Part shown: piece by piece, positions 58,486 through 61,882 of the stretch | Numbering within the stretch: position 1 is the stretch's first letter | Layout of the letters: each line of letters opens with the position of its first letter | NCBI RefSeq assembly: GCF_006716265.1 | Contig: NZ_VFOS01000001.1 | Coordinates: 744,001 to 808,000 of the forward strand | Direction of reading: 5' to 3' | From: Rarobacter faecitabidus | GTDB lineage: Bacteria; Actinomycetota; Actinomycetes; Actinomycetales; Cellulomonadaceae | DNA: 64,000 nucleotides | Notes under the pieces: model-generated | Told to the model about the DNA's origin: nothing | Databases searched by the model: none | Seen by the model: only the letters and a program-made list of their open reading frames with translations | Made by a program: the position numbers and the translations under genes

Positions 58486-59322
58486 CTATTCGCTGTAGAA
58501 CGGGCGCTGAGGTTCGACGGGCGCCGCTGCGCCCCAGTTCCCGGCCTGTGGGGGTTGCGGCCCGCCCCAGTTCCCGGCCTGTGGCGGTTGCGGCCCGCCC
58601 CAGTTCCCGGCCTGCTGTGCCAGTTTCCGCTTGCGAGACGCCCGCACCGCCCACAGGATGATGCCCCAGATTAGGAACACGCTCGCGAAGAAACCGAGCA
58701 CGATGGTCGCGATGAGGGCGATGAAGGCCGTTCGCGCCTTGGCGGCAATGCCGTCGACGGTGCCCTGCTCCACAAACGTGAGCTCGAACCCGGTCGGCAC
58801 CTGCGCCGAACTCGCGACGGTCACGAAGTACGGGCCGTCGCTCGTCGCCGTGAACCTCCCGACCGGCGACAGCACCTCCTCGATGAACGTGCCCAGGCTT
58901 TCAAAAGTGGTGGGAGCCAGGTCCACTACGGCCCCAGCGCTGTCCTCTAGAACGATGTCGGACGCGCTGATGCGGTAGATCGAACTGGAACTGGAGGACG
59001 AGGAACTCCAGTCGGAGCCGTCATTGCCACGAGTGGACGTCGTCGACGTCATCACCGACGGGAAGATCACGTAGGTTCGCCCGGCCTTCAGGCCTTCGGC
59101 CGTGAACCCATTGGACTCGTCCGCCACCGCTCCGGAGGTGATCTCCTTTGGCATCGCCGCGACGTTCACGACGATGACAGCGATGAGACCGATGCACACC
59201 ACCGTGAGCGCGATGCCGAGGAAGGTGAGGACCTTTCCAAGGCCGGTCGCTGTCTTCGGCGGTGAGGGCTGCCCCGGGTACTGCGGCTGAGCTGGGTACT
59301 GGGGCGTCACGTAGTCGGTCAT
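58486..59322 (-). CDS. Uncharacterised two-helix membrane protein with repeat tail
   Basis: A 278-residue protein. A proline/tyrosine-rich N-terminal tail (PQYPAQPQYPGQP) precedes the first helix (about 29-55), an extracellular Ser-rich domain (about 60-195, with a run of nine Ser) and a second helix (about 200-225). The C-terminus has three copies of AGNWGGPQPPQ. No family recognised; it resembles actinobacterial DUF-type envelope proteins with two membrane spans. ATG 59322 is chosen since TACGAT lies 6 bases upstream, which suggests a leaderless transcript. It is divergent from the guanidine riboswitch unit. Confidence 0.7.
   Translation of the reverse strand: MTDYVTPQYPAQPQYPGQPSPPKTATGLGKVLTFLGIALTVVCIGLIAVIVVNVAAMPKEITSGAVADESNGFTAEGLKAGRTYVIFPSVMTSTTSTRGNDGSDWSSSSSSSSSIYRISASDIVLEDSAGAVVDLAPTTFESLGTFIEEVLSPVGRFTATSDGPYFVTVASSAQVPTGFELTFVEQGTVDGIAAKARTAFIALIATIVLGFFASVFLIWGIILWAVRASRKRKLAQQAGNWGGPQPPQAGNWGGPQPPQAGNWGAAAPVEPQRPFYSE
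58532..58615. repeat. 33-base tandem repeat in the C-terminal tail gene
   Basis: About 2.6 copies, starting at 58532, 58565 and 58598, encode QAGNWGGPQPP. The first two copies differ at one base. Confidence 0.88.
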
Positions 59323-59328
59323 GCGACC

Positions 59329-59334
59329 ATCGTA
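59329..59334 (-). promoter_or_regulatory. Predicted -10 of the divergent membrane-protein gene
   Basis: Minus strand TACGAT ends 6 bases before the ATG at 59322, so the transcript is probably leaderless. Confidence 0.45.
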
Positions 59335-59336
59335 GG

Positions 59337-59365
59337 CTGGCACGAAATTTCGCGCGTGCTAGCCT
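59337..59365 (+). promoter_or_regulatory. Promoter of the guanidine exporter unit
   Basis: CTGGCA (59337-59342), a 17-base spacer and TAGCCT (59360-59365). Transcription would start near 59372, just at the beginning of the leader hairpin. Confidence 0.55.
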
Positions 59366-59371
59366 GAAGGC

Positions 59372-59430
59372 GAGATCGATACGATCTCCCGGACGAGCGG
59401 TGTCGTACCCGGCCAGCGACAAGACGACCC
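59372..59430 (+). promoter_or_regulatory. Guanidine-III riboswitch (ykkC-III) with upstream hairpin
   Basis: A 7-base inverted repeat (GAGATCG-ATA-CGATCTC, 59372-59388) is followed by the conserved core: CCGGACGAG at 59389-59397, CGTACCCGG at 59404-59412, and GACAAGACG at 59418-59426. These three blocks in this order and spacing are the ykkC-III signature, in which the CCGG blocks pair and a pseudoknot forms between the loop and the GACAAGACG region. The region ends 2 bases before the AAGGAG ribosome site of the exporter gene, so ligand binding probably controls translation; I cannot tell the sign of regulation beyond the known activation by guanidinium. Confidence 0.9.
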
Positions 59431-59443
59431 TCAAGGAGTTGTC

Positions 59444-59758
59444 ATGTCCTGGCTCATTCTCATAATCTCGGGTGTGCTCGAATCCGTGTGGGCGTTGGCC
59501 CTCGGTCGTAGCGACGGCCTGAGCAAACTTGGCCCCACCATCACCTTCTTCGTCGCGGTTGTTGCGTCCATGTTCGGACTGGCCATCGCCATGCGCGACC
59601 TGCCGACATCGACGGCATACGCCGTTTGGGTCGGCATCGGCGCGACGCTGACGGCCGCCTACTCGATGATCTCGGGGGCCGAGGCGATCTCGGTCGTCCG
59701 CATCCTGCTCGTCGCAGGCATCGTCGGATGCGTCATCGGACTGAAGCTCGCCCACTAG
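59444..59758 (+). CDS. gdx: SMR-family guanidinium exporter (Gdx/SugE type)
   Basis: A 104-residue, four-helix small multidrug resistance protein. The conserved Glu13 is in SGVLESVWALAL, and DLPTSTAYAVWVGIGA fits the Gdx subgroup rather than promiscuous EmrE. It should exchange guanidinium for protons. AAGGAG 5 bases upstream of the ATG is the ribosome site next to the guanidine-III riboswitch, which strongly supports the role. It is a single gene with no obvious SMR partner. Confidence 0.92.
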   Translation: MSWLILIISGVLESVWALALGRSDGLSKLGPTITFFVAVVASMFGLAIAMRDLPTSTAYAVWVGIGATLTAAYSMISGAEAISVVRILLVAGIVGCVIGLKLAH

Positions 59759-59789
59759 CGCTCTCACACCGCGCTGTCACACCGTGCGG

Positions 59790-59849
59790 ACACCGGTTGG
59801 GGTCGTTCGACACCCGCGATATCGGGTGCTCGGGAGCCCTAACCGGTGT
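59790..59849. terminator. Nested inverted repeat between gdx and the ABC exporter
   Basis: Outer arms ACACCGGTT (59790-59798) and AACCGGTGT (59841-59849) enclose inner arms CACCCG (59811-59816) and CGGGTG (59823-59828). The genes converge here, so a two-way terminator is likely, but no T-run is present on either strand. Confidence 0.5.
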
Positions 59850-59908
59850 TTGCGGGATTCTGTGGAGGTGTCTGGTCGAATCGGCAGTGTGAAACGCGTA
59901 GAAGCGCG

Positions 59909-61882
59909 TTAGCCCACTACCTCGTCCGTGGCGGGCGCCGCGAACTGTGCCTCGTACAGGTCGGCGTAGACCCCGCCCGCCGCGATCAGTTCCGCATGCG
60001 ACCCCTGCTCGACGATGGCCCCGTGGTTCATCACGAGGATGAGGTCGGCGTCCCGAATCGTCGAAAGACGGTGGGCGATCACGAAACTCGTGCGGTCCGC
60101 GCGCAGCGCGTTCATCGCCTTTTGGACGAGCACTTCCGTGCGAGTGTCCACGCTTGAGGTAGCCTCGTCCAGAATCAGGATGCTCGGACGCGCCAGGTAT
60201 GCGCGGGCGATCGTGATGAGCTGTTTCTGGCCGATCGAGATGTTCGTGGCCTCATCGTTCAGCACCGTGTCGTAGCCGTCGGGCAGGGCGCGCACGAAGC
60301 GATCGACGTAGGTCGCTCTCGCGGCGTCGACAATCTCGTCCTCAGTGGCGTCGATACGACCGTAGGCGATGTTGTCGCGGATGGTTCCGGCGAACAGCCA
60401 CGTGTCCTGCAGCACCATGCCTGTACGCGAACGCAGGTCGGCGCGCGTCATCTTGGATATGTCCACGTCGTCGAGCGTGATCCGGCCGCCGCCCAGTTCG
60501 TAGAACCGCATGATGAGGTTCACCAGCGTGGTCTTGCCGGCGCCGGTGGGACCCACGATCGCGATGGTCTGACCCGGCTTGGCCTCGAACGACAAGTCTT
60601 CGATGAGCGGCTCATCCGGGGTGTAGCTGAACTTCACGTGATCGAACACTAAGTGGCCGTGAGTACCCTCGGCGGTGTCGGGATGGGCAGGGTCGGGCCG
60701 CTGCGGTTCGGCGTCGAGGACCTCGAAGACGCGTTCCGCCGAGGCGACCCCCGATTGGAGCAGGTTCATCATCGCGCCGATCTGGCTGAGCGGCTGCGTG
60801 AACTGACGCGAGTACTGGATAAAGGCCTGTACTCGTCCCAGGGTCATGTGGCCGCCCGCTACCTGGATGCCACCGACCACGGCGATCGCCACGTAGACCA
60901 GGTTCCCGACGAACATCATCGCGGGCATGATGATGCCGGAGATGAACTGGGCCTTGAAACTCGCCTCGTACAGCGAGCCGTTGAGGCCCTCGAAATCCTT
61001 GCGTGAGGCTTTCGTATGACCGAACACCTTCACAAGCGAGTGCCCCGTGTAGTTCTCCTCGACGTGCGCGTTCAGTTCACCGGTGTGCTTCCACTGGGCG
61101 ATGAAGTACTTCTGGGAGCGTTTCGCGATCGCCCGTGTCACGACCAGCATGACGGGGATGCTCACGACGGCGATGATCGTCAGTAGCGGTGATGTGACCA
61201 CCATCATCACGATGATTCCCACGACGGTCAGCACGCTCGTCAGCAGTTGCGCGAGCGTTTGCTGAAGAGACTGGGCGACGTTGTCGATGTCGTTCGTCAC
61301 CCGGCTAAGCAGTTCCCCGCGCTGCATCCGGTCGGTGTAGCTGAGCGGCACCGTGTTGAGCTTCGCTTCGACGTCGCGCCGCAATCGGTACATGGTGCGC
61401 TGCACGACGCCGTTCAACAGGTAGCCCTGCAGGTATCCGAAGAGCGATGCGAGGACATAGATCGCCAGGACGCCCAGCAGGACATTGCGCAACTGGCCGA
61501 AGTCAATCCCGGCGCCGGGGACCAGGTCCATGCCCTGAATCATGTCCGCCTTCGTCGTCTCCCCGGCCGCGCGGAGCTGGTCGACGACCTGTTCCTGGGT
61601 CACTCCGGCGGGAATCTGCGAGGAGATGACGCCGGAGAAGATCAGGTCCGTGCCGGCTCCCAGAATGCGCGGGCCGATCACGGACAGCGTCACTGAGAGG
61701 ACGGTGAAGCCGAGCACCGTGATCATGCCGAGCCGTTCTGGGCGAAGCAGTCCGATCAGCCGCTTGACGATCGGCCAGAAGTTCGCCGATCGCTCGACGG
61801 GCATCGCGAGTGCCGCGCCGCCGTGCCCGGGGCCGCCGCCGGGGCGCGGGTGGCGGGGCGCACCGGATTTCTGATCCGCCAT
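59909..61882 (-). CDS. Heterodimeric ABC exporter subunit (second, canonical ATPase)
   Basis: A 657-residue half-transporter with six helices (about 40-345) and an ATPase domain (about 390-640). Walker A is GPTGAGKTT, the signature is ISIGQKQL, and Walker B ILILDEATSS has the catalytic Glu. The signature reads ISIGQ instead of LSGGQ, a common variant on this partner. N-terminal residues are Gly/Pro-rich. The ATG overlaps the stop of the first subunit (ATGA). MdlB/LmrA type; the substrate is unknown, drugs or lipids likely. Confidence 0.9.
   Translation of the reverse strand: MADQKSGAPRHPRPGGGPGHGGAALAMPVERSANFWPIVKRLIGLLRPERLGMITVLGFTVLSVTLSVIGPRILGAGTDLIFSGVISSQIPAGVTQEQVVDQLRAAGETTKADMIQGMDLVPGAGIDFGQLRNVLLGVLAIYVLASLFGYLQGYLLNGVVQRTMYRLRRDVEAKLNTVPLSYTDRMQRGELLSRVTNDIDNVAQSLQQTLAQLLTSVLTVVGIIVMMVVTSPLLTIIAVVSIPVMLVVTRAIAKRSQKYFIAQWKHTGELNAHVEENYTGHSLVKVFGHTKASRKDFEGLNGSLYEASFKAQFISGIIMPAMMFVGNLVYVAIAVVGGIQVAGGHMTLGRVQAFIQYSRQFTQPLSQIGAMMNLLQSGVASAERVFEVLDAEPQRPDPAHPDTAEGTHGHLVFDHVKFSYTPDEPLIEDLSFEAKPGQTIAIVGPTGAGKTTLVNLIMRFYELGGGRITLDDVDISKMTRADLRSRTGMVLQDTWLFAGTIRDNIAYGRIDATEDEIVDAARATYVDRFVRALPDGYDTVLNDEATNISIGQKQLITIARAYLARPSILILDEATSSVDTRTEVLVQKAMNALRADRTSFVIAHRLSTIRDADLILVMNHGAIVEQGSHAELIAAGGVYADLYEAQFAAPATDEVVG

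Follow-up and report, generated by a model that had tools for sequence, protein, structure and literature searches.

A guanidine-III (ykkC-III) riboswitch, of a class of RNA that senses toxic guanidine, stands in front of a lone Gdx-type gene in the window, the whole 64,000-nucleotide stretch of Rarobacter faecitabidus DNA under analysis (contig NZ_VFOS01000001.1, positions 744,001 to 808,000). This unit is well supported as one of an already known kind, and its sequence makes it highly probable that the riboswitch activates translation of one Gdx-type guanidinium/H+ exporter. Ligand binding, the ON direction, the switch and transport are what we infer for the unit; the features on which this reading is built are collected in Table 1.

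A complete guanidine-III aptamer

Scanning of the whole 64-kb window with cmscan returned a single guanidine-III match (RF01763), which scores 65.2 bits (gathering score 36, E 3.3e-11) and covers model positions 1-67 of 67 without truncation. Such a score excludes chance as the source of the match, and the covariance-model scan therefore bears out the guanidine-III riboswitch of the original prediction, while no second match was found in the remainder of the 2.8-Mb genome. The three ykkC-III blocks on which the prediction relied were all located on the plus strand, where and in the order it had placed them, as the conserved core CCGGACGAG ... GUACCCGG ... GACAAGACG, with the CCGG/CCGG and P2 pairs possible.

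The guanidine-III riboswitch of Thermobifida fusca (RF01763, 5NWQ) shares all conserved blocks with the window aptamer, for which both pseudoknot helices are possible and which likewise lies just 5' of the ribosome site of a transporter gene. When the crystal numbering of PMC5696562 is mapped onto the window, a mapping of our own, the ligand-contact residues C6, G7 and G17 would equal positions 59394, 59395 and 59405. By the same mapping the window differs from T. fusca in having a U-A pair in P2 where the T. fusca numbering has C15-G38, one non-standard pair in P2, and one additional base between the second and third blocks, none of which lowers its match to the family model.

Table 1. Features of the guanidine-III/gdx unit in the window, and sets of CBU_0592-type loci in other genomes
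Feature	Position	Strand	Basis
Extended -10 promoter element TGCTAGCCT	59357-59365	+	Conserved distance to first stem
Guanidine-III (ykkC-III) riboswitch aptamer	59369-59433	+	RF01763 cmscan, full model
5' terminal hairpin GAGATCG/CGATCTC	59372-59388	+	RF01763 first stem, positions 6-20; predicted mRNA start
First conserved block CCGGACGAG	59389-59397	+	Sequence
Second conserved block CGTACCCGG	59404-59412	+	Sequence
Third conserved block GACAAGACG	59418-59426	+	Sequence
Pseudoknot helix P1 of the crystal structure	CCGG 59389-59392 with CCGG 59409-59412	+	PMC5696562 numbering mapped onto the sequence
Helix P2	59402-59406 with 59424-59428	+	Rfam alignment and crystal numbering
Predicted OFF-state hairpin holding ribosome site and start codon	59411-59454	+	Minimum-energy fold
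Predicted OFF hairpin pairs	59411-59416 with 59449-59454; 59418-59421 with 59445-59448	+	Predicted fold
Predicted OFF hairpin pairs	59423-59428 with 59438-59443; 59429-59430 with 59435-59436	+	Predicted fold
Ribosome binding site AAGGAG	59433-59438	+	Sequence
gdx-type SMR transporter gene, 104 aa, ATG at 59444	59444-59758	+	PF00893, Gdx-Clo 6wk5
Family riboswitch-linked CBU_0592-type loci: L004, L033, L042, L051, L078, L088, L090, L092
Wider CBU_0592-type set: L218-L297

The 5' hairpin and the promoter

The inverted repeat GAGATCG-ATA-CGATCTC had been regarded as extra to the known fold and as a possible additional operator or 5' stem. It is a real, perfect 7-bp dyad on the plus strand, but it was found instead to be the first stem of RF01763 itself, so that both an operator and an extra stem were rejected on the structure line of the model and the conservation of the stem in the family. 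Directly abutting the core, a perfect stem of 5 or more bp (loop 3-7) was present in 64 of 108 family leaders versus 125 of 1713 upstream control positions. This strict scan was adopted because a permissive one, which allowed loops to 13 and mismatches, was positive for 106/109 leaders and 305/436 controls and could not separate signal from background. Among relatives the bases of the first stem vary while the pairing is kept. The hairpin may have looked extra because the 41-nt crystallised RNA of PMC5696562 begins at the core, without the first stem, by our own mapping of its numbering.

The promoter element TGCTAGCCT is plausible by comparison, not by simple scan. A sigma-70 scan of 59250-59950 left it unreported and returned one site inside the gene (59439-59466), whereas a TGN[TG]ANNNT motif is placed so that the hexamer falls at -14 to -12 relative to the first stem in 49 of 63 distinct leaders, and elsewhere in 1; the 63 are the distinct upstream sequences among the 64 leaders whose stem has 5 or more bp. 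Since this extended -10 keeps a fixed distance before the stem, the mRNA probably begins there, both in the window and in the majority of the group.

The transporter gene and its neighbourhood

The aptamer ends ten bases before the start of the SMR gene, whose product matches Pfam Multi_Drug_Res (PF00893) with 66.9 bits (cut-off 23.7) and is the only match to that model in the genome. Its best PDB match is Gdx-Clo (6wk5, E 3.3e-16), aligned without gaps over residues 1-102, and E13, W16, S42 and W62 of Gdx-Clo are all kept, in agreement with the predicted SMR gene with Gdx residues. In Gdx-Clo, W16, S42 and W62 surround the binding site, and W16 is described as conserved in Gdx proteins and replaced by glycine or alanine in Qac proteins (PMC7695847). 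Compared with the curated SugE model of NCBIfam (NF008512), the protein scores 90.2 bits, under the equivalog cut-off of 126, and on its sequence it is here called Gdx-type and not filed under that equivalog.

The open reading frame upstream of the gdx gene is divergent and the long downstream ones, of ABC-exporter type by our own reading, run towards it. With its neighbours pointing away or towards, the gdx-type gene stands by layout as a one-gene unit right behind the riboswitch, and direct control of a lone Gdx-type gene, as first proposed, is thereby upheld. The divergent frame (58486-59343, minus strand) encodes a 285-aa protein with a Ser-rich run and QAGNWGGPQPP repeats, for which no Pfam or NCBIfam match was obtained; its listed GTG start falls in the gdx promoter region, and a later Met (MTDYV) seems the likelier start.

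In the genome of the window no arginase-family match was found, and no urea/guanidine carboxylase over the cut-off; nine partial carboxylase matches are, by our own reading, modules of other biotin-dependent carboxylases. Of the routes tested, this leaves export. The wider claim that the unit shows the organism to sense and expel guanidinium is retained in softened form, in that the riboswitch and the Gdx-type gene together argue well for this as the likely function.

A predicted switch at the start codon

Guanidine-III riboswitches are described as ON switches at translation, with RNase E protection reported too (review PMC12186494), and competing structures have been presumed for that of T. 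fusca (PMC5696562). In the proposed mechanism, transcription would start at 59372 or one to two bases away from it, and the 5' hairpin would be made first, followed by the aptamer core. Guanidinium would then bind the pseudoknot (CCGG:CCGG together with 59402-59406:59424-59428) and keep the GACAAGACG strand inside the aptamer, a state in which the start codon would be open and the pump made. Without guanidinium, once codons 2-4 are transcribed, GACAAGACGAC (59418-59428), which contains both the third block, where the ligand binds, and the 3' side of P2, would re-pair with GUUGUC-A-UGUC (59438-59448), and GGCCAG would pair with CUGGCU in codons 2-4, leaving the start buried. The exact OFF hairpin of the minimum-energy fold is proposed with moderate confidence.

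Folding of the growing transcript gave an energy of the free RNA of -26.9 kcal/mol with the end at the AUG and of -39.7 kcal/mol with codons 2-4 included, while the mean openness of the AUG was 0.84 with the end at the AUG, 0.34 after codons 2-4 and 0.76 with P2 held; these computed folds include neither the pseudoknot nor the base triples nor the ligand. The fold of 59372-59480 has a z-score of -3.42, with 1 of 200 shuffles as low. The mean openness of AAGGAG was 0.50 in the free state versus 0.50, 0.35 and 0.48 with P2 held, for transcripts ending at 59455, 59473 and 59500, respectively. An opening of the ribosome site by P2 is therefore absent from the computed folds, in which holding P2 opens the AUG only. 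The computed folds agree with the translational ON switch suggested by others because the ribosome site lies so close, and they would add a concrete pairing partner to it.

Comparative tests of the start context

The sequence GTC at -3 to -1 from the start codon complements the GAC of the third block. Of 100 gdx leaders linked to a riboswitch, 50 carry it, versus 3 of 20 gdx-like genes from genomes without a riboswitch match, and in distinct contexts the counts are 39/77 versus 3/19 (Fisher p 0.009), the control being unmatched since these 20 genes, fetched from riboswitch-free matches, belong mostly to another SMR branch (MAW..LEAGWALSL), one of them with a wrong-looking start. For CBU_0592-type genes, a second group of guanidine-III-linked genes treated below, GTC precedes the start in 24/41 linked leaders versus 0/25 without the riboswitch, or 23/40 versus 0/25 in distinct contexts (p 4.6e-7), after 13 core-like below-threshold loci (5 of them with GTC) had been set aside and the guanidine-I locus excluded. 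Two unrelated protein families have this start context in common when the riboswitch is present, and half of the gdx leaders are without it.

When the complementarity of the block to leader sequence 5' of the ATG was compared with dinucleotide shuffles, none of 89 distinct leaders reached p<=0.05; with the first codons included, 28 of the 89 did. Swapping downstream parts between genera moved the mean fold no further than from -16.9 to -16.3 kcal/mol. A permutation of this exchange with one leader per genus gave P 0.053 over 22 genera. With shuffles and inter-genus exchange weak or negative, lineage-specific covariation of the OFF hairpin was not demonstrated; the complementarity is apparently built into the block and the preferred start context, and not tuned by lineage. 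In four leaders of one genus (L045, L046, L049 and L056), GGUGUGC between blocks two and three complements GCACACC right before the start, which by its sequence would be a different means of burying the start.

Placement of guanidine-III in the family

In the Cellulomonadaceae a guanidine-III match was found in 107 of 221 genomes, at 111 places, all of which were fetched and 109 of which lie over the Rfam cut-off. Behind these 109 stand 100 SMR genes, assigned from their N-termini, 8 CBU_0592-type genes and 1 agmatinase-type gene. At the order level, 65 loci were examined (25 + 40 fetched, of which L210 repeats a family place; the remaining order-level places lie outside this count), comprising 62 SMR genes by pattern, a further one by eye (L330) and two CBU_0592-type genes (L333 and L335).

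The agmatinase-type ureohydrolase (L099) follows a guanidine-III match of 40.4 bits, scores below the agmatinase cut-offs, has a His-rich N-terminus and is perhaps a guanidinase. Two adjacent SMR genes near one riboswitch occur in several genera (G121, G123-G125, G137, G139, G145, G150 and G170-G176), as expected for heterodimeric Gdx pairs, the window having a single gene. Guanidine-III-like leaders below threshold (L219, L221, L223, L227, L240, L244 and L290, with L277 and L286 from Floricoccus) carry GACGAC or ACGACGG, not GACAAGAC, as third block and may be an aptamer variant whose ligand preference has changed.

CBU_0592-type genes behind guanidine riboswitches

When named genomes were scanned with the family's seven distinct riboswitch-linked proteins as query, 102 CBU_0592-type relatives were obtained. 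Running Rfam on all of the best 80 showed guanidine-III directly ahead of 41 and guanidine-I ahead of 1, the 42 riboswitches lying on the same strand just upstream of the gene; because the query was itself riboswitch-linked and six of the 42 loci belong to five of the seven family genomes with such genes, 42/80 should not be taken as the rate for the whole family, nor is it fully independent. Core-like letters were seen by eye in another 13 of the 38 riboswitch-negative loci. CBU_0592-type genes hence sit behind the same riboswitch class as the Gdx loci, and once behind guanidine-I. The linked loci span Actinomycetota, Chloroflexota, Armatimonadota, Bacillota and one Deltaproteobacteria-titled record; several come from MAGs, and the Deltaproteobacteria and Clostridiales rows share one metagenome and near-alike proteins, so that one or the other may be mis-binned. 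On a tree of the 80 proteins, for which only 86 columns were usable, the riboswitch label has to change at least 8 times along well-supported branches. A scan of viral contigs gave 1 relative (L298).

The 8 family genes sit in 7 genomes (G002, G012, G025, G070, G158, G159 and G164), G070 having two, each with its own riboswitch. None of these 7 genomes has a Gdx-like match at 1e-8, whereas 175 of the 214 others have one (Fisher p 1.2e-5, with kinship ignored and the seven falling in five genera). Among them is a Rarobacter genome (G002), 81% complete, the other six being 91-100% complete. In the wider set, which has five genomes in common with these seven, the window's Gdx found no match at 1e-8 in 33 of the 41 genomes behind the 42 loci (completeness not given), weaker SMR matches only (8e-18 to 5e-10) in 7 and a strong Gdx-like pair (2e-30) in 1; against a class background of 139/296 genomes with a Gdx match, which is not lineage-matched, Fisher p was 0.0007. 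The exclusion is not absolute, since one genome of the order (G460) has riboswitches before both Gdx and CBU_0592-type genes. The window's own genome has no match to NF047864, the NCBIfam model of the CBU_0592 family membrane protein.

Sequence and fold of the CBU_0592-type proteins

Three of the family proteins match NF047864 with 42.9, 47.6 and 49.5 bits (cut-off 25), and six others, from loci with a riboswitch or a core-like sequence, with 32.7-53.7 bits. Across the 75 rows aligned out of the 80, G9, L14, N36, G39, A47, W53, G54, F55, L58, E59, G60 and W62 are invariant, W53, G54, F55, L58, E59 and G60 by construction of the scan pattern [QE]WGF[LI][LM]LEG. The two proteins found via the riboswitch without this pattern (L333 and L335) keep Glu and Trp (LECGW, LEGVW). 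Among 30 NF047864 loci of the family, all 7 riboswitch-linked ones have Glu, and all 23 riboswitch-free paralogue loci have Asn (18 as printed, L170, in shifted register, and the remaining 4 by eye).

Structure prediction for a single chain was confident, the five models having mean pLDDT values of 91.5 to 72.8, with 91.5 for the best. Helices are predicted at 2-21, 30-49 and 53-82, with E59 and W62 in the third, in contrast to the four helices of SMR proteins. The first four Foldseek rows were SWEET/SemiSWEET proteins, at weak E values of 0.47-1.1, and in a second fold search 5ctg_B had Z 6.6 and rmsd 2.0 over 80 residues, ranked under several unrelated helical bundles. No SMR chain was among the matches listed in the two fold searches, which excludes nothing. 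By sequence, no PDB relative was obtained, the one row being FtsL at E 0.24. No homology with Gdx was detected by profile comparison, which aligns only 8 residues (LEGVWAIV/LESVWALA) at a probability of 3.3%, and the scores with the MerC and CrcB models lie below the cut-offs.

Discussion

How guanidinium would act on this mRNA can be read in another way, in which it mainly protects the message and the burying of the start is secondary, the ligand-bound aptamer behind the 5' terminal hairpin blocking a 5'-scanning ribonuclease. This reading draws on the predicted mRNA start at the hairpin, on the RNase E protection reported for guanidine-III (PMC12186494) and on the ribosome site, which stays unopened in the computed folds with P2 held; the enrichment of the GTC start context, however, calls for a role of the start region, and we consider protection as the main effect, and the block to a scanning ribonuclease with it, rather unlikely. 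As for the 5' repeat, its perfect 7-bp dyad at the predicted transcription start would suit a DNA operator for a repressor, acting independently of the riboswitch. Given that the repeat is the first stem of RF01763, and that in relatives the stem abuts the core and changes in sequence while the pairing persists, such an operator is extremely improbable.

With regard to the substrate, the SMR protein might mainly export something other than guanidinium, for example quaternary ammonium compounds. Both SMR subtypes are described as promiscuous (PMC7695847), and the score with the NCBIfam SugE model stays under the cut-off (90.2 of 126 bits), but a guanidine riboswitch stands in front of the gene and E13, W16, S42 and W62 agree with Gdx-Clo, the best PDB match, which makes a different main substrate improbable. 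Guanidinium export switched on at translation is the preferred reading of the window unit.

Concerning the CBU_0592-type proteins, the loci and sequences make it very likely indeed that the Glu-bearing branch works in guanidine handling. Its members, of about 75-100 aa and with three predicted helices, would perhaps form SemiSWEET-like dimers, and their intramembrane Glu and Trp (LEGVWA) may parallel E13/W16 of Gdx by analogy. A predicted membrane-buried acid that marks the guanidine-linked branch is what a proton-coupled cation exporter would need. It seems reasonably likely that Gdx and the Glu-bearing CBU_0592 branch (NF047864) are two interchangeable guanidinium exporters under guanidine-III. 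This lead is a computational one and may already be listed in ykkC-III gene tables; those tables excepted, the accessible portions of the open-licence literature, searched for guanidine-III in connection with small membrane proteins, SemiSWEET, CBU_0592 or NF047864, yielded no mention of this protein type. As exporters linked to guanidine riboswitches, the review PMC12186494 gives Gdx (SMR) and, as a likely case, MepA/MATE-like proteins.

Taken together, the window offers a known switch in clean form, with its hairpin explained as part of the aptamer, and the reuse of the ligand-binding strand as anti-start strand is proposed as a concrete expression platform for the guanidine-III class. If the reading of the Glu-bearing CBU_0592 branch is true, these proteins would be a third, smaller type of exporter, without detected sequence relation to SMR proteins, and as such a minimal cation exporter.
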